From Boletus sp. NGJ (lineage: Eukaryota > Basidiomycota > Agaricomycetes > Boletales > Boletaceae): 64,000 bases of DNA. The stretch spans positions 124,001-188,000 of the forward strand of contig JAGTXK010000273.1 of NCBI GenBank assembly GCA_019096195.1, written 5' to 3'. The translations under genes were made by a program, and so were the position numbers. Positions 1 through 58,593 of the stretch are shown here, in pieces. How positions within the stretch are numbered: the stretch's first letter is position 1; every line of letters starts with the position of its first letter. The notes under the pieces are model-generated. The model made no database searches. It saw only the letters and a program-made list of their open reading frames with translations, and was not told the DNA's origin.

Positions 1-33
1 GCTGACTGGACTTCTAGAAGAAAGTTCGTTTTA

Positions 34-732
34 ATGAGCGGCCCGTTACAATCTCTCGCAAAGGCTTCTTCGAAAAATGCAGGAAGGATTCTGGTTCGTC
101 TCCTGCACGCTCTTGTCTCGTCATTCGGGTGCGTTGCCTCTCCTTGCTTGCGATATTCGTTATCCAAACAAATACAGGAACACGACGCCGTGCGTTGTCA
201 ACCCCAAAAACTCCCGCTTGAAGCAGATTGTCGGTCTGTTTACGAGGATTGTCTCTTGGACTACCCTGGCTTTCTCGTCGACCTTCAAGTTCTCGAAGGC
301 GACGAACGTTCCGACACGCCGTTCGGATGCGTTCGTAGATCCGAATTCTATGAAACAGAGTCTGGCATCGCCACGTTCGATCGGACAGGCTATGCAAACT
401 ACTGCCTCTCCAGGTGGATCGATAAGCAACGCGAAGAAGCGCGGGCTCCGAGGAAACTCGTGTTCGAAGATCCTGTACTTCTACCGTGGCCCAGCCGTAC
501 CCTACCACCACCTTCGAGCGGCTCACTCGAGATGTCTTGTCCCATGCCACCACTGCCCTCACCTATCTATAGGCCACCACGATCTCTTCCCCGGCGCATG
601 TGGAGGTACATCGAGGACGAACTTCAAAACGCTATTGTTGTGCTCATCATTGGGCTCTTCATCCACATATGTTTATTTCTTTTTCTTTTGTATGATATTC
701 TGACGCGGGGTCTCATCCCATCGGATGAGTGA
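34..732 (+). CDS. hypothetical protein with C-terminal membrane segment
   Basis: An uninterrupted 232-residue frame begins at ATG 34. I recognise no domain. Residues about 165-185 are proline-rich, and residues about 200-222 form one long hydrophobic stretch (AIVVLIIGLFIHICLFLFLL) followed by a short polar tail, so the protein would be tail-anchored or single-pass. GC-rich third positions agree with the neighbouring host genes. An intron is not needed but cannot be excluded. The opposite strand is also open for 182 codons, which weakens the case; the hydrophobic C-terminus makes the plus frame more convincing. Confidence 0.5.
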   Translation: MSGPLQSLAKASSKNAGRILVRLLHALVSSFGCVASPCLRYSLSKQIQEHDAVRCQPQKLPLEADCRSVYEDCLLDYPGFLVDLQVLEGDERSDTPFGCVRRSEFYETESGIATFDRTGYANYCLSRWIDKQREEARAPRKLVFEDPVLLPWPSRTLPPPSSGSLEMSCPMPPLPSPIYRPPRSLPRRMWRYIEDELQNAIVVLIIGLFIHICLFLFLLYDILTRGLIPSDE

Positions 733-1094
733 TTTGTATCATCTCACATGCGGTTTTGTTTTTTTCTTTTCTGCCATGTGGTGTTCTTCCGGTTATTCAG
801 GGCTGCTTGGTGGTCTTTCTGCTGTATACATTATCCTTTCTCATTTTGGCTACTGTATCATTAGTACATCTTAGTCTTAGCCTCACTTGTACAAGCAATT
901 TTTGTGGGATCTCCACACTTCCCTTCCCCTTAAAGGCTGGTGTGAGTTCCGTGAATTGTTATCACTGATAAGGGTGTGCATCACGTGCTCCTGCCTGCGT
1001 GACAGGCTTATGTCATATGTGACTGTCGAGAATACCGCGTTATCACGCAAGTCCCCGCATTGATTAATATTGATTCTTGAATCGCCTCCACGTA
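733..1094. other. intergenic, no gene seen
   Basis: This gap between two plus-strand genes is T-rich just after position 733. It presumably holds the first gene's 3' end and the promoter of the gene at 1095. I see no RNA gene or repeat. Confidence 0.5.
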
Positions 1095-2039
1095 ATGGCA
1101 GATGCCAGTCCTTCCAGCTCCTCCGAGAGCCAGCCTCGCGGACGCGGTAGAGGCAGAGGCAAGTCAAGAGGCGGCCTCGGTAAATACCTCCGCGCTCGGG
1201 GACGAGGTCATTCATTCGGGCGTCCTGCCCAGTTCACGAAACGACTCGTTCCAGAGGGCGAAGAACCGGAAGACGTCGACCCCGAAGAAGCCGAAGAGAT
1301 CCGCCAGAGGTACTCCAAACGTCAGCTCGTATCCAACGCGGATCGGTATGCGGAGGAGGAACCCCAGCAGGATTCAGACGGTACGCGTTTCTTTTTTCCT
1401 TTCCTTTCCTTTCCTTTTTTTTTTTGAGGGGGGTCGTGTTATAAACGTGTTCAGGATGTTTAGGAGAGGAGATCAAGGAGCGCGAGGTCGATCTGTCTGC
1501 GTTTTTGGAAAAGCAACGACGGTCGGATGTGGATTCGGCGTTTGGAGCGCTCGATGCGCGGGAGGAGGATGAAGACGAGATAGATCATTCGTTGGCACAT
1601 ATCACTTCCCAGCGGCAACCTGCTTTGCAGTCGAAAAAGGGTCGCGTGCAGACGATCGAATGGGACGAGTCGCTCGAACGGATGAGGCGCGAGAAAGCTG
1701 TGGCCGAGGCTAATCGAGGTTCGTCGGTGGTCGTAACAGCAAAACCACGGAGTCAATGATTCTTTCCCTCTGCTCCGTTTTTCTTTTCTTTTCTTGTCCG
1801 ATTAGACCTAAAGGAAAGGTTTAGAGCAAAGACGAGCACGCTCAGAACGAAAGCCGATGGCTCCCAAGGAACGAAAGAAAGGTCCGTCCGTATGTCACGC
1901 GTTTCTGTTTGGGCCTCGATTGCTGAGTCTCTTGGAAGAAAACGATGTCGTCGAGGCGCCGCCTTTGCCTACAGAGGGTATCACGAGGAAGGATCCAAAG
2001 AGTGAGATGCAAGATTTCCTTGACGATTTGCTGGGGTAG
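1095..2039 (+). CDS. conserved Arg/Gly-rich, acidic fungal protein (four exons)
   Basis: Exons 1095-1380, 1464-1718, 1806-1889 and 1939-2039 join to 241 codons plus stop. Introns start GTACGC, GTTCGT and GTATGT and end in AG. The N-terminus is an RGRGRGR tract followed by GGLGKYLRARGRG; the middle is acidic and carries the motif IEWDESLERM; the C-terminus is MQDFLDDLLG. The RG-rich start suggests an RNA- or chromatin-associated nuclear protein, but I cannot name the family. Splicing removes in-frame stops and keeps one composition across all exons, so the gene model is good. The third intron (49 bp) is the least certain because its acceptor lies close to other AGs. Confidence 0.7.
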
Positions 2040-3044
2040 GACCTGTGGAAGTGGGGTGACTGTTCCGTTGTGCTTTACATGATCCACACGTTCTTTATGT
2101 CGTGTGGTTGAGGAACCTCTGACTTTTTGGACAGTGCGAGTGCCTGACCTGACGATGATCAGTCCGTACATCTTAACTGGGATTAAGACTACGGCTAGCT
2201 CAACGACACCGCGATCACTGGACGCAATATTTCCCGCAGATGCGTTCGAGCGACAGGCAATGACGTGTTCGTACACAAAGTTGTCCCGCTCCATACCAAT
2301 GCCAAAAAACCACACCATCGGTTGGTTGCCTGATAGTCCAAGCATTCTTGTTCACCCGCCTCCATCCAGCTGTTCGCGGATGCAAACGTCCATGCACGCA
2401 CCCTCTCCTGACGTCCGCTTGGCAAGAACGCGCTGATGATGAATCTCCACTGTGTCTTGTCCCGGGGTAACTAGTGCTACGAGTAGATGCCCCGCCACCC
2501 GACGGTAGCATCCTCTTGACGAAGTTACGCACAACCTGTCCGAGCCGTCCCCGTGTTTGTTGTTGGGATATCTGAGGATGCAGGAGCGTGCGGGTAAGCC
2601 GGAACGCCCGAATAGGTGTCGTGGTATTCGTACGCGGCGTATCGGCATAAGACAGGGTGGAAAAGTCGACCAGGTAGGTAGGAACCGGACTCTTGTGAAG
2701 GCAGGATTGTATCGACACTGGCGTGCTGGATCTGATTGCATTGCCTTTCGTTCCGGGGTGTCATGGTCGCACACACTCCTCCTGGGTGATTGTCGAGCAT
2801 TGGTCTCGGGTCGTCACGGGGAGGGCGGTGTTTGCTTCCCACCATTCGGTGACGTCGGTTTGGTCGGTGAAACATGTTCCCGACTCTCGCGAACATGAAG
2901 ACCTGTGTCTTGGACTCTGGCGTCTTGGCGGGTTATGGGCAGAGGTATCCATTGCAAACCCATTACCAAGACGGACCGTCATCTGTCGCTGCAGCAAAAC
3001 AGTTGAACTGGGCCGTAATACATGAAAACTTGGGGAGACACCGT
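2040..3044. other. about 1 kb without a supported gene
   Basis: Several overlapping frames are open on both strands, but none shows a recognisable motif or a consistent splice chain. I looked for a pheromone-receptor (STE3) remnant, given the pheromone-like genes downstream, and found none. Confidence 0.4.
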
Positions 3045-3787
3045 GTTGTTCACGAAAGCACTCGCATTGGAGCTGCATATACCTGGACCCCAGCGCAAGT
3101 GGTGGAGATGGAACCTGGCCGAGGTCAGAATGGGGACCAAAAATCACAATCTGTGCTAACATCAGCTGATTTATGAGGTGTATAAGCTACACACTAGATT
3201 CCATGAATTTGTGAGTAGTGAGTAGACATCGCAGCGAGATGATCCGAAAATGGCAAGTGTAGCTAGCATTCGGGGGTTTTGCGCCATGTGGCTGTGTGGT
3301 CCGACAGACAATTAAAATGTCATTCTGCTATCACTGTATCAGACTACTCGACGCGGACAAGACAAAAAGGTGGAGAACAGCCCTGACATGACTGAAACAT
3401 CTTTTGCCTTGCCTTCACACGTTCCTGTCTCACTCCTCTTCAGTCGTCTTGTACGGTGCGTGTAGGCTTGCGTTTGCTTTCCCTGGCAAACTCCCTGGCA
3501 AACTCACGTCCCAGGAAACGCGATCCTTTTTAATCGGCCCGTATGGCTGCAGCCGTGTCTCGCCTCTCTTTTGTTCTCACAAATGGAGACGCATTATCCA
3601 GACCGGGTCTGCGATGACGGACGACAGGCAGCCAGAATTTCGGCAAGGACTCACCTAAACAATAACGAATGTCACCCGTCGGGTTTCGCTCCAGGGATGA
3701 GTCCGCCCGGATGGCAACCATGATATGGAGCATGTTTGATTCTTACGGCTCTCAATTGTCTTTGATCGGCACCAATGTCCGAGCAAA

Positions 3788-3799
3788 CGTATATATACG
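3788..3799 (+). promoter_or_regulatory. TATA element of pheromone-like gene 1
   Basis: The palindrome CGTATATATACG lies 114 bases upstream of ATG 3902. The same 12-mer precedes the other two pheromone-like genes at nearly the same distance, which supports a TATA box kept by selection or recent descent. Confidence 0.65.
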
Positions 3800-3901
3800 G
3801 CGGGGATGAGGCCAACCTTCATCACTAAGTCTACACCAGTCGTCTTCGTCTTGGAGGTCTTGCGACTTCTCTGCCATACATTCCTCTCATCATATACAAC
3901 A

Positions 3902-4054
3902 ATGCAGTTTGTCTCCCTGTTCGCCGTGCTCTCCGACTCCTCCTTCACCTTGGCCGATGCCCCCAATGCACCAGACTCGGATGAACCGCAAATACCAGTT
4001 GATGAGATTGGCAACTGGAGCTCTACGGGTGGCAACTTTTGTATCATTGTATGA
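3902..4054 (+). CDS. mating pheromone precursor-like peptide 1 (CAAX end CIIV)
   Basis: A 50-residue frame begins MQFVSLFAVLSDSS and ends GGNFCIIV before the stop. Cys plus two aliphatic residues plus one is the CAAX farnesylation signal, and length about 40-60 with an acidic, Pro-containing middle and a C-terminal CAAX is the usual layout of basidiomycete lipopeptide pheromone precursors. The shared core PQIPVDE recurs in the two paralogs. If correct, the product is farnesylated, trimmed and exported, and acts on a STE3-type receptor in another mate. A TATA element lies 114 bp upstream and CAACAATG surrounds the start. No receptor gene is visible in the window. Other CAAX peptides cannot be excluded, but three diverged copies with invariant CIIV favour this call. 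Confidence 0.7.
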   Translation: MQFVSLFAVLSDSSFTLADAPNAPDSDEPQIPVDEIGNWSSTGGNFCIIV

Positions 4055-4414
4055 TATACCATTTTGTAAGCATCTTTCCTTCAAAATTTCCAATGTTCCC
4101 AAACTGAGCGACGCCAAAGTCACGGAGACTAGCACGCCGTCAGTGGTCGAAGCGGAGCCTAGACTCCCAATTTCCTCTGCCCGAGAGTCGTGTGAGCGAG
4201 CTTATCAGATGAGGATGGCGGACAGTCTGGGGATAGCGGTGTCGAGGGGAGAGCTGCAGGCAACTCAATTTCAGTCGGGCGACCATGAAGAGCATATCTC
4301 AACCACGATTTCAGGAATCACACTTCTACTACTACATACAAATATACCTAACAGGGTGAGACGCGTCCGATGCTATTGCACATGAAGTGCTCATATTATA
4401 TTACATTCTGATGA

Positions 4415-5232
4415 TTTTTTTTTTTTTAAATTTCATTTATGTCCATGTGGAGTACGAGTACTCTATGTAGGACAATCTATCGTGTCTGACGGGGCCCTTG
4501 CCCCTCCGCTTCTCCGATCTCGTGAATACCATAGTGTGGGTTTCCCCCACTAGTCCCCCGTTCCCGCCGGCCGTTTTAGACACGCAGATCTTCTAAGTCG
4601 CGGTGACGGTTTTGTCCGTGCCGAGTGAAGTGGTGTGGTTAGGCGACTTTTGAGGTGTGACATGTACGTCTCCCTACCCGTCTGATACCCGTCCGGCTCT
4701 GCCGATCCCTCGTAGACTTAAATATTAGGTGGAATATGGTATGAATGGCTTCAGCGCGGGTTACGGCGTGTATTGCGATAAGTTCGTTTTGAGACGACCT
4801 GAATTGTGAATGAAGTTTAGTAGAGGGTTAGTCGCGTCTGGTTGTGTTAGTAGGTATCGTAAGTCGAATGCTTTCATTCTGAGTGCGTTGTATAGGGATT
4901 GGTGTTCTTTGGCGTAGCTGGGACATTCGAAGAGATAGTGTCGTAGCGTCTCTATTATGGGGGCGGGGTCGTCAGTACAAAAGGGGCAGTGTGGCGTTTC
5001 GGATACACGTATGCGGTATAGGTGTTGGTTGAGTGCTAGGTGGTTCGAGTAAAGGCCGACTAGAAGGGAGGTGTTAACTTTAGTTAGGAGGGCGACGTTG
5101 AATTTGTTTATTGTCGTAGACCGTCGATTATCTGAGCCGACTGGTATCCTGTCTGGTTGATCTGGGAAGGATATAAAATTGCTCATGGGCGCCCTCGTAT
5201 GCTTGGCCTGCGGCTGAGCTTACTGATTCTCC
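4415..5232 (-). mobile_element. 5'-truncated LINE (non-LTR retrotransposon) fragment
   Basis: On the minus strand, 5186-4761 encodes 141 residues with the Cys-rich tail of a LINE reverse transcriptase ORF: CPFC, then ETLRHYLFECPSY, a CCHC-like finger seen after the RT/RNase H part in fungal LINEs. The frame is followed by about 330 bp of 3' UTR and a tail read as the T-run 4415-4427 on the plus strand. The reverse transcriptase core is missing, so this is a typical 5'-truncated insertion. Comparison with duplication copy 2, where the flanks are nearly adjacent, marks both edges. I could not define a target-site duplication. Confidence 0.75.
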
Positions 5233-5570
5233 GACTATTCGGCCTGCCCAGCACAGTTCGCCGTACACGGCTCTCTTTCTGATGCCAGTGCGGTATCATG
5301 CATCATGCGATTCATACCCAACTTCAAGCCAGACATCGCAGGTCCATCCACGCGCGTACACATGGTATTCACCAGATTTTCCTTGACAACTTTCTCGTGG
5401 TTCTCTGCACATGCACAAGGATCGGGCGATAACACGTGCAGTGTTATAAAGCTTGAGAGACGAAGTGGTTGGTAGTTTGAGTGCAATTGTGCCAGTGACT
5501 CGTGATCCAGCCCGATACAGCGTACAAGCGCAAAGGATCAACGCGACGTAGTACGCCCATTGTCTCGCTT

Positions 5571-6169
5571 GTGAGTCGAGCTATTGATCAAGGGATTTCA
5601 TGGTCATGGGCGTGACTTGGTCGCTTTGTTGATCACAGTCGTCCCGGATGATCCAACCAGGCCTGGCGAGTTGATGGGCTCAGGATCCCACGGACTGTAA
5701 CACTCCACACCACTCGGTGAAGTCGTCCCATCGACTCCGACGGTAAGCACATACGAGTAGTGTGTGTTGTGAGAAGAGTTATCAAAAAAAGGTTCGGATT
5801 AGGTGGATGATGACCTTATCTGTTGTCCCCATTGGAATGTTTTCTAATAGAGTTTGACGATATGCCAAGTCCCAGCTTTGAGCTAACACGCACAACGCAG
5901 TAGACTTGCCTGAAACTCGGACATGACGACGTTGAGATACTCGTCTTCAAGGTACTGCGGGGTCTCACAAACGAAACACTCATACGAGTAACAGAGGTTA
6001 GTACCGACATGTCACAAAAGTGACCGTCCGAGTTTAAAGAGGATTGGCTTACCTCTTTGTCAATTTAATTCCCAAATACCCGACAGGACTCAGGGCTACT
6101 CGTCTATTGTCTCTCGATAGAATAAGTAATTGATACCTATGGAATGGTGCCTTGTGACGATGTGAGACA
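5571..6169. other. spacer between duplication copies
   Basis: GC-balanced DNA with no frame or splice chain that I can support. It separates the two copies of the pheromone-bearing duplication. Confidence 0.4.
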
Positions 6170-6950
6170 GGTTGCTCACGAAAGCACTCATGTCAAATTG
6201 GAGTCTTGCGTGGGCCCATGCACAAGCGGTGGAGATGGAACGTGGCAGAGGTCGGAGGTCAGAGTGGGGGCCCAAAAATCAAGTTCTGTGCTACAAGATG
6301 AGGCGTATAAGCTGTACACCATTCAGACGACTCCATGGATATGTGAGGTAGAGACAGGATCCAAAAATGGCAAGTATAGTGTTCAGGGAATTTTTTTCGA
6401 CGTGTGGCTGTGTGGTATGACAGACAATTAGAATGTCATTCTGCTATCACTGTATCAGACCATTCGACGTGGACAAGACAAAAAGATGGAGCTCGATGGT
6501 GAATGGCCCTGACGTGACTGAAACACCTTTCAATGACCTTCTCCTCACACATTCCTATCTCACTCCTCTTCAGTCGTCTTCTACGGACCGACGACGTACG
6601 GTGCGTGTCGCATGAGCTTGCGTTTGCTTTCCTGGAAAACTCACGTCCCAGGAAACGCGATCCTGGGGTTTATTCGGCCCGTACGGCTGCAGCTGTGCCT
6701 CGCCTCGCAATGACATTCTTTTTGTTCTCACAAATGGAGAAGCATGGTCCATACTGGGTCTTCGATGTGACCGACGACAGGCAGCCAAAATTTCGGCAAG
6801 GACTCACCTACACAATAACGAATGTCACTCGTCAGGTTTCGCTCCCGGGATGAGTCGTCCTGTGATGCAACAATGATATGGAACATGTATAATCCTTGCG
6901 GTCACATTGTTTCCTGTCAATGTCTTGGTCGGCACCAATGTCCGAGCAAA

Positions 6951-6962
6951 CGTATATATACG
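6951..6962 (+). promoter_or_regulatory. TATA element of pheromone-like gene 2
   Basis: The same 12-base palindrome CGTATATATACG as in copy 1, here 120 bases before ATG 7071. Confidence 0.65.
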
Positions 6963-7070
6963 GCGGTGATGATGCGGCCTACCTTCATCACCAAGCCTAC
7001 ACCAGTCGTCTTCGTCTTTCAAGAGATCTTGCGAGTTTTTTGCGATACACCCATTTCATCATATACAACA

Positions 7071-7223
7071 ATGCAGTTTGTCTCCCTGTTCGCCGTGTTC
7101 TCCGACTCCTCCTTCACCTTGGTCGATGTCCTCACTGCATCAGGCTCAGAAGAACCGCAAATACCAGCTGATGATAACAACAACTATAACTCTGCGGGTA
7201 ACATCAGTTGTATCATTGTATGA
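7071..7223 (+). CDS. mating pheromone precursor-like peptide 2 (CAAX end CIIV)
   Basis: This 50-residue paralog of peptide 1 starts MQFVSLFAVFSDSS, keeps the core EEPQIPADD and ends NISCIIV. The last 18 residues, which should form the mature lipopeptide, differ strongly (DDNNNYNSAGNIS before the CAAX), while signal-like N-terminus and CAAX are kept. That pattern is expected when paralogous pheromones diversify in specificity. It lies in duplication copy 2, with TATA element and CAACAATG context conserved. Confidence 0.7.
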   Translation: MQFVSLFAVFSDSSFTLVDVLTASGSEEPQIPADDNNNYNSAGNISCIIV

Positions 7224-8134
7224 TATACCATTTTGTAAGCATCTTTCCTTCAATTTTTTTTCAAGGTTCGCAAGCTGAGCGACGCCAAAGTCACGGAGAC
7301 TAGCACACCGTCTGTGGTCGAAGCGGAGTCTATGCCCGAGAGTCTTGTGAGCGAGCTTGATGAGGGGACAGTCTGGATGGGGTAGTCGAGGGGAAAGCAG
7401 GCAACTCAATCTCCCAAACTGCCCGACTATGAAGAACATATCTCTACTACTACTACATGCAATTAATATTACTATCTTCGACAACGTGACTGACCAGCTA
7501 TGTGGTTGACCGGGTATGCGATAGTATCATTATGGACGCGTCCGGTGCTGTTGCACATGTAGTCCTCAATATTTCAATGTTAATATTCCATTACGGCCTG
7601 TCCGGTACAGCTCGCCGTACACGGCGTGCTCACTGATGCGGCATGATACCCGACTTGCACAGACTCGGACACCGCAGCACCATCATGCGCGTACGCATGG
7701 TGTCCACCAATTCTTGCAGGCTTTCTTTCTCGTGGTTCTCTGCATATGTGAAAGGATCGGCGATAACACGCGCAGGGTCATAAAGCTTGAGAGATGAAGT
7801 AGCTGTGCTTGTACGATTTGAGTGCAGGTGTGCCAGTGACGTGATCCAGCCCGATGCAGCGTACAAGCGCAGAGGATCAACGCGACGTAGTACGCTCCGA
7901 CTCGTTCCTTGATGGATTCGTCAGCTTCGTACACGCTTCGTACGCTTTAGTTTCCTTTGTGATGTTTTCAAAGAAAGCTCACCCAACGCGGTGTTGCACC
8001 GAGCTGAGGGATGCAATACGGTGCCATTTTGATGCCTTTGTTGGGTGTGTGAATGCCGTTGAAGCCGGGGCCAGAGTGACGGGTATAAAATTCGGCAACG
8101 GCTGGAAAGGTGCATGATCGTATAACGCAGTACA

Positions 8135-8377
8135 ATGAGTACCCTCCTTACTATAAATTTTGATGACTTTTTAGTCAGCACTGAGGACCATCCCGTCACC
8201 TGCCGTGTGACTGCCACCTTCGAGCCGAGCGGCGAAGCGTACCCTTTGTCTCTGAACGCGAACGGCCGAAATGAACGTGCATCAAAGAGGGGCGTGTGCC
8301 CCGTAGACGTACCAATTGCATATGAAAAGTCATCACCCTTACCCGTCCTCACCGCGAGCGATGCGACCCTTGGGTAA
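8135..8377 (+). CDS. small hypothetical frame
   Basis: Eighty residues from MSTLLTINFDDF to TASDATLG, with no motif that I recognise. The antisense strand is open over the same stretch for 161 codons, so this may be chance or part of a spliced gene. The rest of 7911-9529 shows no gene that I can support. Confidence 0.2.
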   Translation: MSTLLTINFDDFLVSTEDHPVTCRVTATFEPSGEAYPLSLNANGRNERASKRGVCPVDVPIAYEKSSPLPVLTASDATLG

Positions 8378-9529
8378 TTGAGAACGCCGTGCACGAGCAG
8401 ATTCATGAAGTGACCCTGTTGAGACTGAGACAGTATATTTCGAACTGGAAGCAGAAATGAGCACTTCGCAAGATGGGTGGTGGTACACGATAGAATGACC
8501 GAGACGCACGATGCACGTCCAAGAGTGGATGAGTCATTTAAACCCGGAGACCCTCTGTAAGGCTCAAAAAAAAAAATTCGCTGGAAGGTCTAGGGTTGAA
8601 TTGTTGGATCCGAGGGAAAGCGTCGTGTAATCGGCATACCTCTGGATTTGACAGAGCGCCTGATTATGTAATGTCCACTTTTGCGTTGCAATCGTCTGTA
8701 TCACAAGAGAATGCCCCCCAAATGAAATGACAGAAGCAGGGAACGTACCAGCATTCTTTTGGGGCTAAATGGTCTCATTGAGAACCTGCTTGATGTTGAA
8801 ACGGACCCAACCACACAAGCCGGACAATGAAGACTTGGATGTCAGCAAAGACTCGGACAACGACATCCCTGACTTATTGGACGTACTGCGATTGGGTGAA
8901 AGCACCTAAGTGATCACACACCTGGTTGAAAGTTGTCACAGTCAACAGGCGTCGCGTCCGTGTCGCTGCTGACAACACGTTTCCCATTGTGAAACACATT
9001 GTTCGAGTTGCCGAGATTAAAAAACCGCGCCTTTTTTCAGAAGAGTCCTGGCGCTATATGGATGCTTACAGGTGTGACCCCAGCTGCATGCAGCACTTTC
9101 TCTTCCTCTTACCCTACCTCTCACGGAAAGGGGCGGAATAAGCAGAAGCCCAAATCTCAGTAGCTGATGATGATGAGTGGGAATCAATGATTGTTCACGG
9201 AGTTATGTAAGTAACAGCGCGGAGATAACCCCTACGCCCAAATATGATAACTCCAACTTTCTCCGACCGAAGTTCGCTTTTGTTGTGGTGGTTCCATGTC
9301 AAAATAATGCACTAACCACCCAGTATTTGTGTCGTGGAAGTGGTAGATAGAATTATAGTTTTACTCATACCTGAGTTGCCGCTTCCTCAGTACATTGTAT
9401 GGTCCATTTATCTAGTCTGACAGTATCTATCATAGATAGGTTACGTATCACGTGTACGTGCGAATCCGCGGAGCTCATAAACTTGAGTGATAATTTACTA
9501 CAGTAACCACACCGTTTATCTCCGTTGCA
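8378..9529. other. about 1.1 kb without a supported gene
   Basis: Only short, unrelated frames occur, the longest being 71 codons at 8926-9141, and none has a recognisable motif. Confidence 0.4.
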
Positions 9530-9759
9530 AAGTCCCTCTTTTGTTCTCGCAATTGGAGACGCATGGTCCGAATGGTGTAGTTCTTCGACGAGATTGAAAG
9601 AAGTCATAATTTCGGCAATAAGATATGCCTACACAATAAAAAATGTTCCACCCGCTGGTATGACCACCCTGATGCCGCCATGAATGGGAACGTGTTTAGC
9701 TGCTACCGTAACATAGTTCCCTCATAATTGTCTTTGACCACCGTCGAGATCCGAGCGAG

Positions 9760-9771
9760 CGTATATATACG
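9760..9771 (+). promoter_or_regulatory. TATA element of pheromone-like gene 3
   Basis: CGTATATATACG, unchanged although the surrounding bases differ from copies 1 and 2, 109 bases before ATG 9869. Confidence 0.65.
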
Positions 9772-9868
9772 AGGGTAATGAGGTGGCTTACCTTCATCAC
9801 CAAGCACGCCCCGTCTTCTTCGTCTCTTGCCACTTCTCTGCGATACATCCCTCTCTTCATATACAACA

Positions 9869-10000
9869 ATGGACTTCCTCTCTGTCGTCTCCTTTACTCC
9901 GTCCAATGTCTCCACTGCATCAGACTCGGATGTACCGCAAATACCAGTTAATGAAGCCGACAACTGGCAGGCTGGATACTCGTTTTGTATCATTGTATGA
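9869..10000 (+). CDS. mating pheromone precursor-like peptide 3 (CAAX end CIIV)
   Basis: A 43-residue frame runs from MDFLSVVSFTPSN through SDVPQIPVNEADN to AGYSFCIIV. It is shorter than its paralogs at the N-terminus but keeps the PQIPV core and the identical CAAX box. Many longer frames overlap it on both strands, so a gene finder may miss it. Support comes from conserved position, TATA element and C-terminus across three copies with otherwise diverged DNA. Confidence 0.68.
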   Translation: MDFLSVVSFTPSNVSTASDSDVPQIPVNEADNWQAGYSFCIIV

Positions 10001-10040
10001 ACTACCGCATTGTAAGCATCCCTCCTTGATCGTTCAAAGC

Positions 10041-10869
10041 TTGTAAACTGAGAAATACCTATCTAGCAGAACCATCTTCTCGTTGTCGTCCACAGTGCCA
10101 CGATCTGGCTGTTATATAAATCTTCTTCGTTCCAAATGATCTCACTTTTTTGTCGCAATGCGGCATTGTTTTTACTTCGTCCACTCCCGGTCGTGGACTA
10201 TGTGGTTGATGCCGGACTTCGGGTGTCAGGGAATCAGGGCAATTCATCAGGAAGTTGTCGTTGTTTGGGAGACCTTGATGGTTATAGCACTATGGGCCTC
10301 ATAAGTCACGTTGTCACTGTATTGATAACCACCGCACACACTCTCCTTATTAAATGCGAAACCTTGTACTTGCTGGACCGTCTGACCTGTGTCTAGTGCG
10401 ATTCTCGTGAACAAGCCTTGAACCAAATGATTTATGTGATATGAGAGACATACGATAGTCAAGTTAACGCTTCAAGCTTCAAGCATGACGGCATCAATAC
10501 CCTGAAGCGCAGATCTAATTGCGAGATGGGTTTGTTTCGGCAGAATGAATATACACCAGATGCTTTGCTACTACATGATCCTTGGTGAAATATTGTTAAT
10601 TCATTTCCGTTTCGAGGCAGATAGACCCTCACATTTCAGAGCGTTGTATCGCTTATAAAATTAGAGGCGTTGGGACTTTAAATCTGGGAAGCTCTCAGTC
10701 CCGCTACACAAGCCCCTGAACCACAGCACATACCAAACTGGGACAGTTTCAGTCGGAGAAGGTCTGAGATGCACGTTACCACACTTCCGCTGGCTGTTTT
10801 CTCCTTGTTCCTGCACGAGACTCGATGGCCCACGCGACAACGTTGATTCTGTGCGGCTTGCATCTCACC
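10041..10869. other. no supported gene
   Basis: Frames at 10136-10396 (+) and 10247-10462 (-) are open but show no family features. The minus-strand one could be a single exon of an unrecognised protein. Confidence 0.35.
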
Positions 10870-12579
10870 TTGACAATCCTCAGCTAACCGACGTCCAACC
10901 CACCAGTGACACCGGGGCTTCCAGTAGGACGATATATCACATCCTCCACCCTTTAGGCCCTCAAGATCTGGTTCGTCTACGAGCGGTACGTTTGACCCTT
11001 CTGTCTCTTTCTCCATGTATGTGCGTGTGCGTGTGCGGTACTTGAGTCCCGCTTTCTCATTTATCCACGATCCTGCCCTCCGGCGACCCGTCTATTCTAC
11101 CGCTCGTCTCCCTCACCCACCTGGTTTATTCCGCTGGCAATCCACCCGCTTCCTCCAACGCACGCTCGTCCACTCAGCACGCCTCCCAAACACGTGGGCT
11201 ACCAAACCACTCACGCTCATCTCGAGCAAGAATATGAAGCAGCTTCGGTCGCGTGACGTCGAGACAGGTTCGGAACGGGCGCTGTGGAATCATGGATCGT
11301 TCGCATGTTGGTGGACGACGTTGGTGATAATCTCACAGGGTCATTTCATTTAGGTCGTTGTGCATCGCGGGAGGGGCGTCTTGCGGATCCGGTGTATGTC
11401 TCACTGTGATGCGTTCTCAGCGGTCCCGTGTAAATGATGATGTTTTCTCTCAGGAGTTTCTAGTGGATGATAATACGGAGTACTTGTCGGGTCCGGGGAT
11501 GTTGGATGTGCCGACCTGGAGCTTTCAAAGAGAGGCGTTTATACTGCGTATCCAAGTTGATAGCGCACCATCTTGGAATATCGCGGGGTATGGTTAAATC
11601 TCGTCGGACTCTGCTTTACGCAGACCCTTCTCCTCGTACCTCTCGCGCTCCTACCTCATCCGTGGTCATCTTGGCGGGGTCGAGGTCGTTCAGACTCGGA
11701 CATTCGCCCTCCCAGACGTCGACACTAATCCCGCTCCGAATATCGGGCCGAGCGGCGACTTGGTTCCTGACAGTATTCGACCCATCGTCCGCGAGCTCGT
11801 CTTATCAGAGGGTCACATGACATGGGATCGATGTGACTTGCCGTCGACCCCATCACGCTCCGTTTCATGCACGCATACGCACCTTTCTATCCTACCCCGA
11901 TATGCGTGTCCGACTTGTATGCACCGACGCGACCATACCCTGGCTGCGTCCCATACCGGTCCTATCTCCGCCACTGTCGAAGACAACCACCCCAATGACG
12001 ACACGCACAGCAATAGCAACAATAATAACAATAACAATAAGAGCGGTTTTAACGCAGCACCGAAGAAGTGCTCCCGATCACCACCGCATCGCACGACTTT
12101 TTTTTTCGTTCAGGGGCTGTGGAAGGGTAACCTGATCGACGTTTCCAGCGACGAATTCGTCCAAGTGGTCGAACGGACGCGTGTCCGATATGTCCGATGG
12201 GATGATTCACAAATTCACCGTGGACGCTGTGGGGGAACGGCCTGTTGCCGTCGTCAATGATCCGTCCCCGCCGTGGGTATACCCGTCTCAGTATTACGAG
12301 TATTCTTTGGGACGGGACGAGAGGGGAAAATTTAGTACACAAAAGGGATGCGTACTGGAATGGAACACGACGGGAGAGCGTTTGGATAGGGACCGTGCTC
12401 GCGATCGTCGTCGACTTCAAAAGGCAGTTGACTGTTGGGTTGTGAAAATACATACCCATAACCCAACCCAACGTGTATATTCCCTGGTGTTCGATTACGT
12501 CGCTGAGCCATGGAGTCACATCGGCCAGGGGGCAAAGCAAAACACGTACATGTATGATTGGGATATCAACGACAGATGA
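10870..12579 (+). pseudogene. decayed host gene, possibly of an F-box-like family
   Basis: Coding-like segments lie in different frames: ILHPLGPQDLVRL near 10950 (an F-box-like start), HDPALRRPVYSTARLPHP at 11063-11120, EFLVDDNTEYLSGPGML at 11455-11510, and VYPSQYYEYSLGRD near 12280. The order and composition look like one gene of about 500 codons. Frame changes at about 11600 and 12180, stops between segments, and a CAA/TAA trinucleotide run at 12010-12040 are not explained by simple introns. The F-box assignment rests on one short motif and is weak; the coding character is clearer than the identity. Confidence 0.35.
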
Positions 12580-12905
12580 AAACAATGACTCCACAGTTCA
12601 GACTGGTTGATGCGAAAGGGTATGTACGGCTAAGCATGTCCGCGTCCACACTTCCCGTGCCTTTCGCATAACCTCTACAAGTGGCCGACCCACACCCCGC
12701 CAAAGCAGGCTTGGGTGACCGATTAGACGAAGGATCTAGAGAGGTGTCATCAAGAGGGAGTGGTGACAGGTAAATAGACACACGTCCTAACAGTCAGATG
12801 GCTATCTGCACGACATTTACTACTCTGCAACAGAACGCTGCTTTGACCAATGAACACACAGGGTCAACGCGAATATCAAAGGGAAACTTACATTGGAAAT
12901 ATTGT
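12580..12905. other. region 3' of the WD40 gene
   Basis: No independent gene is seen. On the minus strand this may contain one or two tiny last exons of the WD40 gene, since a TATGTAG/GTAAGT pair brackets 21 bases near 12893-12913. Confidence 0.3.
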
Positions 12906-13940
12906 TCAAGACCTACATAGGACGCTCGAATGAGTATGAATAGTGGATACGCAATGAGAACGGCATACCAGAGTATCGTGCTCCTTTGGCGCTTTACAGA
13001 TATAGGCGCCAGAGACAATGAAATCCCCATTTGGAGAGTAGGCGACGCAAAACATATCCCGTGGAAAAGAGTACCGCGCCACCTCCCGTACATTCTCCAA
13101 ATCCCATACATACACCACGTTTCCGCGCACGCTTGCCAGAAAACGGCCGTCGGGGGAGACCGACATGCAGATGTATGGCCACAACTGTGGCGCGGGGATC
13201 CCACCCGCATGATCCCGCCAACAACGTATTTGCGTGCCCGTGTGGGCGTCATACATCATGAGTTGCCCGTTGGCGAGGTTGTTGGCGATGACGCGTGACC
13301 CGTCCTTGGTCCATTCCAACGAATGCGCTCGCTGCTTGATCTCGAGCGATGGTCGACCGGTAGCCAACTCCCATATTTGGATGCAAACGCCACAAGCTGC
13401 GAGCCGCGTGTCGTCCGGAGAGAATCGTGTGCATCGGTTATTCCCCTTCCGAGGCTCGAGCACACAAACGCAGCTCCCATCCGTGGTGTTCCTCACCTCC
13501 AGACTATCCGACATGTACTCCCTCTCGAACGCAAACACCAAAAAGCGCGTATCACTACTAAAATGGACGACGCAGAGACAGCGACTGATGGCGGGTTTGT
13601 CAAACGTATGCTCGATTCGACGTGCGTTGGCGTCCCAGAGTAGGACTTGACCGCCATCTCTGTATGTACCACCTGTGGCGAACTTTTTTCCGTCTGTGGA
13701 GACGGCGACGGTGGTGAAGTTGGTGAAGAAACCACACCGGATGGCTTCGCCTTCGCGGGTTTTTTCTTTGACATTCCAGATCTGTAACCCTGGGCCAACG
13801 ACGGCAATTAATCTGGAGCCATCGGGCCAGAAAGCAAGACAAGGAATAGAGGCTTTCTGTTCAGGGATTAGTTCCTCGGCCTGATGGTCTGTGGACTGGG
13901 AGGATGCCATGGATGAGAAACCGTTGAGAGAGAGTTGCAT
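12906..13940 (-). CDS. WD40-repeat protein
   Basis: The frame from ATG 13940 (alternative ATG 13910, MASSQSTDHQ) gives 344 residues. About seven blade-like repeats are visible, each with a hydrophobic-FSPDG-like turn and a W/Y-D end: FWPDGSRLIAV...LQIWNV, VSTDGKKFATGG...VLLWDA, FSPDDTRLAACG...IQIWEL, WTKDGSRVIANN...LMMYDA, VSPDGRFLASVR...VYVWDL and YSPNGDFIVSGAY. Such proteins are beta-propeller scaffolds; no enzyme domain is attached. The last blade stops after SGAYI, and the next bases form a GTAAAG donor, so the final residues are probably wrong and further short exons may follow. The partner or pathway is unknown. Confidence 0.75.
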   Translation of the reverse strand: MQLSLNGFSSMASSQSTDHQAEELIPEQKASIPCLAFWPDGSRLIAVVGPGLQIWNVKEKTREGEAIRCGFFTNFTTVAVSTDGKKFATGGTYRDGGQVLLWDANARRIEHTFDKPAISRCLCVVHFSSDTRFLVFAFEREYMSDSLEVRNTTDGSCVCVLEPRKGNNRCTRFSPDDTRLAACGVCIQIWELATGRPSLEIKQRAHSLEWTKDGSRVIANNLANGQLMMYDAHTGTQIRCWRDHAGGIPAPQLWPYICMSVSPDGRFLASVRGNVVYVWDLENVREVARYSFPRDMFCVAYSPNGDFIVSGAYICKAPKEHDTLVCRSHCVSTIHTHSSVLCRS

Positions 13941-14174
13941 GATCGGCGACGGTCATTCCGGACGTGGATGTGGGTGGCACCGCCACTATCCACAACCTTT
14001 AGTTGCATTACATCATCATATATGCTGCAAGCAGTTCCAACACACCGTCCTTGGCGGTGCACCGAACCATAGTAACATTGTAGAATCACATTGCAATTTC
14101 AGCGGCCAGTTTTCTGCATGAACAAGGACGACGATAATAACGAGTGTCCAGTACCAAACCACCGACGTCTTTCC

Positions 14175-14588
14175 TCACGCATTGATGTTGATGTTGATGG
14201 GCGAACAGCCAATGTTCACCAGACCGTTCTGAGCAGTGCGCATGAGTGATGACATCTAAACTTGAGTCAAACGGCGAACACGTACGAATTCGTTGTTGGA
14301 ACAGCAAACGGGCTGTTGCTGAATCGTGCAACCGCTACCCGTGCCGAGAACAGTGAGAGGTGTGCAGGTAAGACCGACAAGCCCGCCGGCATCTGTAGCA
14401 GCGCTGAGCAGGTTCAACGTCGACAAAATATAATCGGCTTGTTGCACCTATTGAGCGAAAGGAATGCAGAAACCCACCGTTTGGACGCTGTTGCAACAGC
14501 TGATAGAATCTGTGTTGCATTGGTCGCGCCCCTCCAGGCGAGAGGCAGAGACAATGAGGGCGAGAGGAAGGAGGGCAAAGATGCTGAT
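14175..14588 (-). pseudogene. class I hydrophobin, start codon lost
   Basis: Three coding pieces on the minus strand give a complete hydrophobin: a signal-peptide-like ISIFALLPLALIVSAS, then QCNTDSISCCNSVQ, GLVGLTC, GSGC, QQQPVCCSNN and, after a 57-base intron (14285-14229, GTACGT...CAG), GLVNIGCSPININ. The eight-Cys pattern C-CC-C-C-CC-C is complete. Hydrophobins are secreted and self-assemble at air-water interfaces. Two oddities stand out. No in-frame ATG precedes the signal peptide; ATC occupies the expected place at 14588. The first intron would be only 30 bases (GTGGGT...TAG) with an in-frame stop. A TATAAAAG element sits 66 bases upstream. Either the gene has recently died or an unusual start is used. 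Confidence 0.7.
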
Positions 14589-17581: not shown

Positions 17582-18180
17582 CGTGGCGGCTAGTTGAAGA
17601 GGTCTACAACGCGCGTGAGCGATGTCGTCCGCCTATTAATATGTGGGTTAAGGATATAAGTAAAACCGGAGAAATTAAGAATTGGGAATGTACAGCGCAA
17701 CGTGAACTTAACTTGTTGGCGGCGGCGCCGGAGATCGATGGGTATGAGAGACTTTTGAGGGTCTACGCACAATGGCGTAGTCTGCGTAGTGGACAAAGCC
17801 CTGGCAATTGGCGGCGCTAACCTGATCCCGACCGTCGGAAACTGCATGCCGTCTCGCGGCACATCAAAATATTTTTTAATCTCCGACTAATTAGATTTCA
17901 CAGCAATAGATCTGTGCGAGAAACCTAGCCCCGGCCGCGAATTTTCGAAAGAGAAAAAGTCACTACGCGTATGCTTGACAAGCGCATTGGTCAATTCCTC
18001 CGAGTTGAGATGTCTCAACAGTTTGAAAGAAACTAAAACTTCGTTTTTTGTCCGTAAACTGTGGTCGATCACTACACCCCAAATCAAACTGACGTCTGGT
18101 GGACGTCAAAATTGGTTTATGTCAGGCTGATGCTCAACTGGTGGTGTGGCTGACGATTTCCGTCGACCGTTTGGTGAGCT
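17582..18180. other. upstream region of the membrane-protein gene
   Basis: No gene seen. The DNA becomes AT-richer towards 18.1 kb, where the transposon-rich, CpG-poor block begins. TTTGGTGAGCTCACCAAA at 18170-18187 is a perfect palindrome at that edge. Confidence 0.45.
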
Positions 18181-18906
18181 CACCAAACATCGACACCACC
18201 ACATGCTGCACATCTATTCGTCTGCCCTATCGTTAGTTGGTTATCATCCTAGGGTCAAATGTCACATTCATGTTTCAAGCCAGCATCTCAACAACCCTAA
18301 CCCAAGCATCCACTGGATATCCAGCAGACATCTAGTGGACATCTAAGTGACACCCAGGTTTTTGTATAAATTACAATATAAATAGATTTTACATTCAAAC
18401 AATAGCATGAGCATGGGAAGGATGGCTTAACACACTACTAGAATACACAGTAGAAAAAACATAATAATCAGGCACAGATGAGGTACAGTTTCAAGCACTA
18501 TGTGCTCAAATGGACATGGTTGAGGTAGGCGACTCGCCAAACATCGACACCACCACTTGCCGCACATCTATTCGTCTGCCCTATCATTAGTTGGTTATCC
18601 TAGGTCAAATGTCACATTCATGTTTCAAGCCAGCATCTCAACAACCCTAACCCAAGCATCCACTGGATATCTAGCAGACATCTAGTGGACATCTAAGTGA
18701 CACCCAGGTTTTTGTATAAATTTATTATAATAGATTTTGCATTCAAACAATAGCATGAGCATGGGAAGGATGGCTTAACATCAGAATGTATTGAATTACT
18801 AGAATACATAGTAGAAAAAACATAATAATTAAACTAAATAATCAGGTAGAGATGAGGTACAGTTTCAAGCACTATGTGCTCGAATGGACATGGTTGAGGT
18901 AGGAGA
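18181..18906. repeat. two tandem copies of a 354-bp repeat
   Basis: The unit 18181-18534 is repeated at 18535-18906 with few changes. The start CCAAACATCGACACCACCAC recurs exactly 354 bases later, and both units end in ATGGACATGGTTGAGGTAGG. There is no coding capacity. The second copy has a small insertion (ATCAGAATGTATTGAA) relative to the first. Confidence 0.85.
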
Positions 18907-19078
18907 CAAGTGTTTGTGCTCATATAACACTGTTGGGGCAGAAATCAAGTAATTGTGCTCAAATGAACATGGTGAAGGCAGGAGATGGATGGCTGTGCTT
19001 GCATTGACTTGGTCAAAGGTGGAAGATGAGCATTTATGCTCAAACAGACTCAGTTGAGGTGGGAGGAGACAAGTCAAA
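18876..19078. repeat. degenerate 40-bp minisatellite, about five units
   Basis: Units begin GTGCTCGAATGGACATGG, GTGCTCATATAACACTG, GTGCTCAAATGAACATGG, GTGCTTGCATTGACTTGG and ATGCTCAAACAGACTCAG, spaced 39-42 bases apart. The first unit overlaps the end of the 354-bp repeat, so the array may have grown from that end. Confidence 0.65.
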
Positions 19079-22984: not shown

Positions 22985-23650
22985 ATAGCTAAGTGCCAGT
23001 GAGAGAACATGATCATGTGACCATAATCAGCATAGCCTTGTGTCACCTGACTGAACATTCCATGACCTTCCATGACATTCCATGGAGTTCTATGGCATTT
23101 TCTGAAGTTCTATGCTTCAGTCAGCAAAAGCCTGGCATTTGTAATAAACCTCTTGGCATTTATAAGCAGCCAAACCTTCTGATTGGCTAGCCAAGCCCAT
23201 GTATTTACAGTATCTATAAAAGAAGAGCCATTCAGGCTACAAAGAGAGCAGATTTTCCCTCAGTGGAATTATCTCAACCAGAGAAGTTCTCTCAAGGAGA
23301 ACAATTCTCACCCTTATGTACTTGGAGTACCACTCACAGACAACCCATAGAGAACCTTAAGGAGGACATTCTCTGTAGTATTGGGCTGCTAGTTATATTG
23401 TTAGGAGTAAAATCCTTGTAGCCAATAGTACAAGTAATATAGAACACCTTTTAGAAGAAAACCCTAAATAGAGCTTCAAAAGGGAATAGATCCCCAACAA
23501 TATAATACTACTAGAATCCAAACAAACTCTGCTACTCAGCTGACTGCCCACCTAAAGAGATAAGTGATAGTACAGCCAAACAAGCTTTGAATTGCACTCT
23601 CCTTAGCATCACAATAAAGCTTGAGTTATTATAATCTATCTGAGTGAACT
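22985..23650 (+). mobile_element. LTR-like relic, plus orientation
   Basis: The segment has an LTR layout: a TATAAAAGAAGAGCC promoter-like site at about 23216, an AATAAAGCTTGAGTTATT polyadenylation-like stretch near 23622, and no coding capacity. It is cut at its right end by Tc1 element 2. It is probably from a Ty3/gypsy element. Edges are approximate. Confidence 0.5.
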
Positions 23651-23651
23651 A

Positions 23652-25255
23652 CAGTGACCTCCAAAACTGTTGCAATGTCTAACCCTGATGTGGTGCGCGC
23701 AGTGCACCACAAACACCCGTGGGAACTTACACTTCACTTTGGTGGGAACAAACAACGTACACACTCGTGGCTACAGTCCGGCCTCTGGATCATGTGATTC
23801 GGATCAGAGGCTGTGGAGTTATGTCCATTTCAAAACAGCAATACCATTGCAACAGTTTTGCATCTCTTGGTATGAAGTGGGTATTAGTACTTGGTATAGC
23901 CTTCCTTTTGCCTTGAGCACTGCCTCAACCCTCCTAGGCATGCCTTCAATTAACTTCTGACACTCCTCAAGTGGTATCCCCTCCCATTCCACCTGAACTC
24001 TCTCCCATAACTCATGAATTCCACTAGGAGGTTGTTCTTGATCTGCTAGCCTTCTTTTGAGGTGACCCCAGAGGTGTTCAATGGGGTTGAGGTCAGGAGA
24101 CTGTGCTGGCCATATCATAGTCCCAAACTCCTGCTCTCCAAGCCACTCTTTCACCTTTTTGCAAGTATGCTTGGGGTCATTGTCTTGCTGAAAGATCATG
24201 TTAGGAGGATCTAGACCATAATACTGCAGAGTATTCAGCAGCTCATCCTTCAAAATCTGAAGGTAAAGGTCTCCATCCATCCTACCATCAATCTTGGTAG
24301 CATAGCCAACTCCCTGCCAAGTCATACACCCCCACATCATGAGAGAACCTCCTTCAAACTTCAAGGTCCCTTCAACCAATCTATCATTAAGCCCTTCACC
24401 TGCTTTTTTCCAGCCCCATTTTCACCCATCTGACCCTAGGCGATTGATTTTAGTCTCATCAGACCATACTACCTTCTTCCAGTCCTCTATAGTCCAATCC
24501 TTATGAGCATAGGCAAAGTCCAAGCGAAGCCTTGTGGTGCCTAGCTGATAGAAGGGGGCGTTTAGACTTTACCACAGCCTTCATACCAGTTTTTCTCAAG
24601 TGCCAGTGCATACTGTGGAGGTAGAGAGGGGTTGGTTGACCACATTGGTGAGAGCCTTGGTCACCTGGACAGCATTTTCTGCCTTTCCAGATGAAATAAG
24701 ACGGATGGCATGACGAAGATTGATAGGAGAAAGCTTGGATGGGCGACCTCCAGCAGACTTCTGAAGCTCAGAACGCTCTTTGGAGTGGAGCCTGGATATG
24801 GTAGAAGCATGGAGACCAGTGGTGGCAGCAATAGAATGAGCTGACTGGCCAGCATCAAGCATAGAGAGAATGGTGTTTTTCTGAGTAGAAGAGATGGATC
24901 TCATGATGATGTGGTTGGAAATAAAGAAGTGTGTGAACTATTTCAAACTCAGACATAATATTTGTATGTGTATCTTTGTTTGTATAACCAAACATTGCCA
25001 CTTATGATGATATTTCAACAAGATTGCACATTCTCTACTAAAAGGTGCAAAACTGTTGCAATGGTATTGCTGTTTTGAAATAGACATAACTCCACAGCCT
25101 CTGATCCAAATCACATAATCCAGAGGCCGGATTGTAGCCAAGAGTGTGTACTTTGTTTGTTCCCACCAAAGCGAAGTGTAATTCCCACGGGTGTTTGTGG
25201 TGCACTGCACGCACCACATCAGGGTTAGACATTGCAACAGTTTTGGAGGTCACTG
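23652..25255. mobile_element. Tc1/mariner element 2 with about 210-bp TIRs
   Basis: Flanking TA at 23650-23651 and 25256-25257; both ends start CAGTGACCTCCAAAACTG and match for about 210 bp. A minus-strand transposase occupies the inside. It is inserted at the end of an LTR-like relic. The TIRs keep CpGs, so the copy is probably younger than its surroundings. Confidence 0.9.
23819..24904 (-). pseudogene. Tc1-family transposase of element 2 (DD34E), broken once or twice
   Basis: The N-terminal part 24904-24596 has a helix-turn-helix (MRSISSTQKNTILSMLDAGQ, then STISRLHSKERS, GRPSKLS). The C-terminal part 24379-23819 carries FQQDNDPKHT and SPDLNPIEHLWGHLK, the second Asp and the Glu of the DD34E triad; WSDETKIN, with the first Asp, lies between them around 24440. 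The frame is lost between 24596 and about 24380, so a whole protein of about 345 residues cannot be read. This enzyme cuts and pastes the element at TA sites. Confidence 0.85.
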
Positions 25256-25559
25256 TAAGTGAAGTGTGAATCAATTGACTTATTTGACCTTCTAAAAAGT
25301 CTACTAACTAAGTCTAGTAACCCATTAGTGTTGCCTAGTATATCCTTAGATGTGTTCATAAGTTGTTTATCATTGTTTACACTACTAATCAAACTACAAC
25401 TGAATTTGTTTCAATTTCAATTTTTCAATGTTTGTTGAGAATTGATGAACAATCTGTGCACTTAGCTACACTAAGTATTCAACTGATTCAATCCTAGTGC
25501 ATCTAGATAGTGTTTCAGTATAAATTCCCCTAGCTAATAGTGTTCTAATCACAGGAGGC

Positions 25560-31449: not shown

Positions 31450-31821
31450 CAGTGACCTTCAAAACTATTGCAATGCCTAATCCTAATGTGGTGCACTATG
31501 CACACCACTAACACCCATGTGAACTACAACCCATGTGAACTACACTTAGCTTTGGTGGGAACAAACCAAGTACACACTCTCAGCTACAATCTGAACTTTG
31601 GACCATGTGATTTGGGTCAGAGGCTGTGGAGTTATGTCCATTTCAAAATAGCAATACCTTTACAACAGTTTTGCATCTCTTTGTATGAAGTGGGTATTAG
31701 TACTTGGTATAGCCTCCTTTTGCCTTGAGCACTGCCTCAACCCTCCTAGGCATGCTTTTAATCAACTTCTGACACTCCTCAAGTGGTATCCCCTCCCATT
31801 CCATCTGAACTCTCTCTCATA
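31450..31821. mobile_element. truncated copy of Tc1 element 2
   Basis: CAGTGACCTTCAAAACTATTG and the next 370 bases match the left end of element 2 (23652 onward), including the start of the transposase 3' coding part, then stop. A TA lies on the left side only; the right side is lost. Confidence 0.85.
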
Positions 31822-32205
31822 ACTCTATTTTGACATCCTCTGTGGAAAGAATCCTTCCCATATGTTCATTAGAGATGCCATCAAAAAGAATATTATTGGG
31901 CTTGATACAGTAAGACATTGTAATAGTAATGGCATTGCTAACAATGTTTACCAAATGTGACATGCATATAGCAATTTCATGCAATGATGCAAGTTAATTA
32001 CTATACATTATCCTTTTATAATAACCAGGCAAATGCATTGGAAGGAAATATTTATATTTATATTTTGAAACCAAAACTAGATTTACAGCTATTTTCATAA
32101 GTATGTGGAAAATAGATTCTCAAAAGTCATGCCTTGGAGACAACTGAGCAAGGACCCTGGGTGCAGCTAAGTGAGCTGATGGCTGGCTAAAGTAAGTAGA
32201 GTTCA

Positions 32206-38447: not shown

Positions 38448-38631
38448 CGCTGTCGTCGTCGTCGTCGTCGTCGGGTTTGCGGGGAATATATTACCGTTGA
38501 GAGCTGGATTAGCTGATGTTCTGCGCAAATTTCTGATGCACATATTCGTCCGATTTCTGCACTATTATGGGAATGCGCTACGGGTGTCGGGCTACTTAAA
38601 CATTCGGCTGGGGCCGCGTCGTCTTCTCTCC

Positions 38632-53868: not shown

Positions 53869-53870
53869 TA

Positions 53871-54814: not shown

Positions 54815-54898
54815 TCCGACCTGCCTGGCTCGAACAGGCGACCTCAAGATGATTTTATCCATTACAGTCTCGCGCTCTTCCAACTGAGCTAAGGTCGG
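54815..54898 (-). tRNA. tRNA-Tyr (GUA) with 11-base intron, left copy
   Basis: Cloverleaf on the minus strand: acceptor CCGACCT/AGGTCGG, D stem GCTC/GAGC, anticodon stem CGAGA/TCTTG with anticodon GTA, T arm GCCTG-TTCGAGC-CAGGC, discriminator A. An 11-base intron (TGGATAAAATC) sits one base after the anticodon, the usual place for eukaryotic tRNA-Tyr introns. A T-run follows. It is identical over 84 bases to the right copy. Confidence 0.95.
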
Positions 54899-55035
54899 CC
54901 GTTCGTACTCATCGTTCCATGCCTTCTTGCAGCAAAGTGCCAGCAAAGACTCGAAATGAACACCATAAACAGCGACAAACACCGTCCTCGGCGTGTCATA
55001 CGCCTGCGGAACCTTTCGAAATTTCAAGCTGCAAT

Positions 55036-55471: not shown

Positions 55472-55652
55472 CTGGGTTACGGATCTTTGTATATCCTTCC
55501 TCGCCTGATGCCCATGCTCTCGTGACCCCTCGACCGTATCGTCAGAACGTGTGTCCATGCGCTCGACCAAGTCATAAAATACAAATCCATTAATGAAATG
55601 ACTAGACCATACCATGTCATACCCCCGATTTGCCCGGACATCCGACACCACG

Positions 55653-58452: not shown

Positions 58453-58593
58453 ATTGCAGCTTGAAATTTCGAAAGGTTCCGCAGGCGTATGACACCGCCG
58501 ACGACGGTGTTTGTCGCTGTTAAACTATGGTGTTCATTTCGAGTCTTGCTGGCACTTTGCTGCAACAAGGCATGGAACGATGATTACAAACGG

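Follow-up and report, generated by a model that had tools for sequence, protein, structure and literature searches.

The DNA considered here, called the window below, is a 64,000-nucleotide (nt) stretch of Boletus sp. NGJ (Boletales; assembly GCA_019096195.1, contig JAGTXK010000273.1, positions 124,001 to 188,000 of the forward strand), numbered from its first letter. A preliminary description had singled out three small frames near its left end as overlooked genes for lipopeptide pheromone precursors, perhaps belonging to a pheromone/receptor (PR, or B) mating-type locus or to a pheromone cluster elsewhere. Our analysis leads us to conclude, with a probability of roughly 85%, that these frames are paralogs which encode precursors of a-factor-like lipopeptide pheromones (or pheromone-like peptides) of the basidiomycete type.

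Three small frames ending in CIIV

The genes and the peptide segments predicted from them are as follows.

3902..4054, plus strand: precursor-like gene 1; 50 amino acids (aa), start MQF, motif PQIPV, C-terminal CIIV
7071..7223, plus strand: precursor-like gene 2; 50 aa, start MQF, motif PQIPA, C-terminal CIIV, weakest profile score
9869..10000, plus strand: precursor-like gene 3; 43 aa, start MDF, motif PQIPV, C-terminal CIIV
4001..4042, plus strand: predicted mature segment of gene 1, DE pair to CaaX cysteine (cleavage rule from PMC5100862 and PMC8305134)
7170..7211, plus strand: predicted mature segment of gene 2, DD pair to cysteine
9950..9988, plus strand: predicted mature segment of gene 3, NE pair to cysteine

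Coordinates, strand and endings of the three frames are exactly those of the preliminary description. The PQIPV motif that it gave to all of them is present in genes 1 and 3, whereas gene 2 has PQIPA. Gene 3 is indeed masked by longer frames, which cross it on the minus strand (96 aa) and on the plus strand (57 aa and 46 aa).

Lipopeptide pheromone precursors are defined in PMC5100862 by a length of about 40-100 aa and a CaaX motif at the C-terminus; at 50, 50 and 43 aa, all ending in CIIV, the three products have this form. According to PMC8305134, a charged pair is expected 10-15 residues before the precursor C-terminus. Here a pair with at least one acidic residue, DE in gene 1, DD in gene 2 and NE in gene 3, stands 11-13 residues ahead of the CaaX cysteine; DD and NE are absent from the charged-pair list of that paper (ER, EH, DR, EE, DE and similar).

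A shared transcription-unit anatomy

Nine blocks of at least 8 bases are identical across the three copies. The features that mark the ends of the putative transcription units are these.

3788..3799, plus strand: TATA-like block CGTATATATACG of gene 1, the same letters in each of the three copies
6951..6962, plus strand: TATA-like block of gene 2, the same CGTATATATACG
9760..9771, plus strand: TATA-like block of gene 3, the same CGTATATATACG
4066..4132, plus strand: putative intron-like stretch 3' of gene 1, with GTAAGC...CTGAG...CTAG
7235..7303, plus strand: putative intron-like stretch 3' of gene 2
10012..10066, plus strand: putative intron-like stretch 3' of gene 3

The block CGTATATATACG is placed 109-120 bases upstream of each ATG. 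Three-way identity is also found in TCATATACAACAATG at the leader end and start codon, in TTGTATCATTGTATGA at the CaaX and stop, and in TTGTAAGCATC directly after the CaaX-stop block. From about 15 bases past the TATA-like block, the ATG of the frame is the first ATG in each copy, and in the alignment the three copies share the position of this frame's stop. ACAAAG, a pheromone-response/HMG core in other basidiomycetes, was not found within 400 bp upstream of genes 1-3; ACAAT and ATTGT are present at similar distances.

Past the stop codons, GTAAGC starts at the twelfth base in every copy and is followed by CTGAG and CTAG, which delimits intron-like stretches of 67, 69 and 55 bases. This pattern was defined after the conserved block had been seen, and about 1% of plus-strand positions show such an intron-like start within the next 30 bases. 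The arrangement resembles that of Agaricus bisporus, for which PMC8305134 describes an intron in the 3' untranslated region of three expressed precursor genes, on the evidence of expressed sequence tags.

Duplication and divergence of the copies

Genes 1 and 2 lie within one duplicated unit, present as direct repeats at a spacing of 3.1-3.2 kb, and a shorter similarity extends to gene 3.

3084..5556, at least, plus strand: duplicated unit that holds gene 1; a fragment resembling a long interspersed nuclear element (LINE) interrupts it at about 4415-5220
6211..7895, at least, plus strand: duplicated unit around gene 2, in direct repeat

The LINE-like 3' fragment between genes 1 and 2 (4415-5220, minus strand) starts on the left with poly-T and matches zf-RVT weakly (E 0.017, under the cut-off). 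Its position agrees with the shorter spacing, 2.33-2.35 kb, of the repeats that lie downstream of the genes.

The 153-nt open reading frame (ORF) of copies 1 and 2 aligns with zero gaps, as against 21 gaps over 852 aligned flanking positions; the ORF of copy 3 has two gaps, of 18 and 3 nt. Copies 1 and 2 differ at 24 of the 153 ORF sites, with 22 nonsynonymous and 2 synonymous changes (Nei-Gojobori). In the segment ahead of the CaaX, 14 of 39 sites are changed, compared with 44 of 331 in the promoter and leader (3569-3901; Fisher p 0.0008) and 10 of 114 in the remaining ORF (p 0.0002), the borders of this mature segment having been picked after inspection of the alignment. The alignments confirm that the segment ahead of the CaaX is distinct in each gene, as the preliminary description had stated. 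For copies 1 and 3 the overall ratio of nonsynonymous to synonymous rates (dN/dS) is 0.82 and that of the mature segment 0.43; the corresponding values for copies 2 and 3 are 1.42 and 2.88. Because these pairs differ, the nonsynonymous excess is not common to every pair; the counts are small.

It is improbable that the copies are decayed or silent relics of precursor genes, left open by chance. The share of changed sites between the ORFs of copies 1 and 2 is no lower than in their flanks, the profile score of gene 2 (below) is weak, and there are transposon pieces in the vicinity, all of which would suit relics. Nevertheless, each of the three copies has retained its start, reading frame, stop and CaaX as well as the TATA-like block and the splice-like sites.

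Similarity to published precursors

From the 13 Rhizopogon precursor rows published in PMC5473757 we took 11 to build a profile, and ran it on the 849 ORFs of the window that start with ATG and encode 30-120 aa, nested starts being counted separately. The best three independent frames among the 849 were gene 3 (E 6.1e-5), gene 1 (E 2.5e-4) and gene 2 (E 0.14). Among 3000 shuffled sequences per gene that retained the initial M and the CIIV, none reached the real score of gene 1 or of gene 3, and 35 reached that of gene 2. In held-out scoring, six Rhizopogon groups received 10.7-26.1 bits; across these runs gene 1 received 16.3-21.1 bits, gene 3 14.5-21.8 and gene 2 4.9-14.8. Genes 1 and 3 are in the range of held-out genuine precursors, and gene 2 is lower. 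Of 180 random CaaX-ending ORFs, 165 were scored; the highest reached 5.6 bits, and none reached 9.1 bits. Because the training set comes from one genus, the profile result shows likeness to Boletales precursors, not species placement.

A CaaX motif by itself indicates merely a prenylation signal, and the frames might encode small prenylated intracellular proteins rather than secreted peptides. We consider this very improbable: the profile scores of genes 1 and 3 each beat all 3000 CaaX-keeping shuffles (gene 1 being weak without its CaaX), and the variable segment lies directly ahead of the CaaX.

We also estimated how often such frames occur by chance. A strict pattern (ATG, 35-75 aa, end C[VIL][VIL]X) finds four frames in the window, three of them ending in CIIV. 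The same pattern finds a mean of 0.62 frames in 200 first-order Markov windows, with three or more in 5 of the 200, and CIIV ends have a mean of 0.01 per random window and a maximum of 1. However, the three CIIV frames are not independent events, because they are duplicates of one unit, and the conserved anatomy together with the profile match is stronger evidence than these counts. A loose pattern, for frames of 25-150 aa with a CaaX-like terminal word, finds 10 in the window; in our judgement only genes 1-3 among them resemble precursors.

The closest comparison is with the precursors of Rhizopogon, also in the Boletales. As listed in Table 4 of PMC5473757, these resemble our genes in size (48-60 aa) and in having CaaX motifs with I or V, which in Rhizopogon include CVIV and CVII; again as here, P[VL] precedes an acidic stretch in three of six groups, and the mature part mostly contains W or Y and G. 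They differ in their MD start, where two of our three have MQ, and in being described beside STE3 genes, whereas ours have no STE3 in view. The pheromone-like precursors of Agaricus bisporus (44-54 aa; PMC8305134) are comparable in size to ours; their mature peptides are described as G-rich, unlike ours, a distinction drawn from the description only. FvPp1-3 of Flammulina velutipes (PMC3140503) are likewise small CaaX precursors of 46-54 aa, reported with weak Pfam E-values (0.0013, 0.45 and 0.035), but unlike ours they have a conserved glutamate/arginine site and linked STE3 genes. A literature search pairing CIIV with pheromone found nothing.

Size, CaaX motif, acidic pair, conserved promoter, leader and stop, variable segment before the CaaX and match to the Boletales profile all bear out the initial assignment of these genes as lipopeptide pheromone precursor-like. 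Genes 1-3 probably add members to this known kind of precursor.

Observations that weigh against the assignment

Several observations nevertheless count against this conclusion. The similarity to published precursors extends beyond the CaaX but is clearly weaker without it: when the CaaX is removed, the first row of the results is gene 3 (E 0.063) and the second gene 2 (E 1.1), and gene 1 comes only in the sixth (E 3.2), at noise level. In the run that left out RVphb2.2, another frame of the window (6.2 bits) outscores gene 2 (4.9 bits). The Pfam family PF08015 (Pheromone) matches none of genes 1-3 at a limit of E 10, at which the HMMER filters still discard most matches above E 0.1; by contrast, it matches all eight Rhizopogon precursors tested (E up to 0.08; three of the eight above cut-off), alongside which genes 1 and 3 were run a second time, again with no match. 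We therefore do not class genes 1-3 as PF08015 members. Genes 1 and 2 begin with MQF instead of the usual, though not universal, MD (gene 3 has MDF), and none of the three has an ER or EH pair, that of gene 3 being NE. The nonsynonymous excess between copies 1 and 2 consists of few changes and is absent from copies 1 and 3, and the choice of segment borders after inspection belongs here too.

Two further points concern the reading of the transcript. An extra ATG occurs 6-14 bases past the TATA-like block in every copy, in frame for genes 1 and 2 (frames of 82-84 aa) and out of frame for gene 3. Transcription typically starts about 25-35 bases after a TATA block, so this early ATG would lie upstream of the transcription start and outside the RNA. 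In addition, the +1 frame is likewise open through all three ORFs. Its products, of 142, 50 and 46 aa, could on that ground be the true ones, with CIIV as a by-product, but this is hardly to be credited: the +1 ATG is downstream of the frame-0 ATG, and the three products end at different places and have no common C-terminus.

Surroundings and the mating-locus question

The last point against the assignment is the missing receptor. We made six-frame Pfam scans (X at stops, E 0.1) of positions 1-13100, 12700-37401 and 37300-63999, and 162 of the 212 ORFs of at least 85 aa from 11000 onward were scanned at E 0.01. No STE3, ICMT, PAK or other PR-locus neighbour is among the matches listed by the six-frame scans, whose power for a multi-exon STE3 was not benchmarked, or by the ORF scan, one set of which lists 25 of its 27 families. 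The six-frame scans did detect hydrophobin (a family of fungi, as suits DNA of fungal origin), DPM3, ABC and transposase domains; the families in the window also include WD40 repeats, an ABCC transporter, zinc dehydrogenase and several transposons. The flanks covered are 3.9 kb to the left of the genes and 54 kb to the right. An STE3 gene within 20-30 kb on either side, the check that the preliminary description had proposed, did not emerge within these limits, and its suggestion of a mating locus is unsupported within the window; its other suggestion, a cluster outside such a locus, may apply instead. With no STE3 match listed in the window, we do not class the genes as a PR locus.

The genes could still be mating-type-specific precursors at the edge of a PR locus whose STE3 lies left of the window. 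We hold this as a tentative possibility, at somewhat less than even odds; it would give the same molecules another genomic role and is compatible with their being pheromone precursors. The short left flank leaves room for it, Boletales PR loci are described with several precursors next to STE3 genes (PMC5473757), and the setting is transposon-rich, as reported for some expanded matB loci (PMC13108863). On the other hand, the window yields no listed match to STE3, ICMT or PAK, and the receptors and precursors of Serpula S7.9 are given as lying within about 22 kb (PMC3564976). In described PR loci the receptors are found close to the precursors (PMC5473757, PMC3564976), but the A. bisporus precursors are described as sitting apart from receptors and without a mating-type role (PMC8305134).

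Three candidates for missing partners were rejected. Hydrophobic segments at 600-900 (plus strand), considered as the end of a receptor, are without Pfam support. A hydrophobic frame at 38296-39336 (plus strand) has just three matches, all below cut-off. The ABC transporter that begins at about 40.4 kb is not a Ste6-type exporter: Ste6 is in an ABC subfamily other than ABCC, and the best 60 of 282 solved relatives of one of its frames are all ABCC proteins such as MRP1, YCF1, SUR and CFTR.

Other features of the window are listed here.

12909-13952, minus strand: 348 aa frame, WD40-repeat protein
About 14200-14520, minus strand: gene resembling hydrophobins, two CC pairs (match to Pfam Hydrophobin at E 3.3e-11 in the scan of 12700-37401; position by pattern)
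18179-18907: tandem pair, units 348-374 bases apart, pieces 92-99% identical
23650-25257 and 31529-31825: repeats and inverted repeats, probably the DDE_3 transposase matches
About 40400 to past 44300, plus strand: ABCC-type (MRP1/YCF1-like) transporter gene across several frames
52257-53871: probably Tc1/Tc3-type transposase frames, flanked by inverted repeats of 223 bases with 94% complementarity
54795-58697: duplication in inverted orientation, about 3.9 kb, with 86-94% complementarity between aligned pieces of the arms and one tRNA per arm
About 58168-58452, minus strand, and again on another frame: DPM3-like sequence, in or near this inverted duplication
In or near the same inverted duplication: zinc-dehydrogenase-like frames
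About 60393-61617, minus strand: Tc5-type helix-turn-helix match at about 61426-61617; DDE_1 match probably in frame 60393-61244

Interpretation

For the expression, processing and receptor of genes 1-3 we infer the following course. Each gene, with a TATA-type promoter of its own, would produce a precursor of 43-50 aa. If processing follows that of known precursors (PMC8305134, PMC5100862), the cysteine of CIIV would be farnesylated and, once IIV is taken off, carboxymethylated. Cleavage close to the DE, DD or NE that follows PQIP[VA] would leave a peptide of about 11-14 residues. Such lipopeptides leave the cell via an ABC exporter, and this one would then act on a STE3-type receptor. The terminal V may permit farnesylation, as is suggested by Rhizopogon, whose authors attribute all their CaaX ends, CVIV and CVII included, to this modification (PMC5473757).

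Duplication of the whole unit produced the copies. Between copies 1 and 2 the peptide segment has changed more than the surrounding DNA, with promoter, leader, pro-segment and CaaX better kept. One may speculate that this is a receptor-free array away from the mating-type locus, in which whole pheromone units duplicate and mainly the secreted peptide segment diversifies, so that it could supply ligands of new specificity or a signal unrelated to mating; we think this rather unlikely. If a receptor lay just past the left edge, genes 1-3 would be ordinary.

Precursor genes this small are easily overlooked. About 50% of the Rhizopogon precursors were found only by a CaaX pattern script (PMC5473757), and genes 1-3 escape PF08015 too. 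With their known positions and three predicted peptides, they are of value for studying the origin of new pheromone specificities, since among the copies the peptide segment changes and the remainder of the unit is better conserved.

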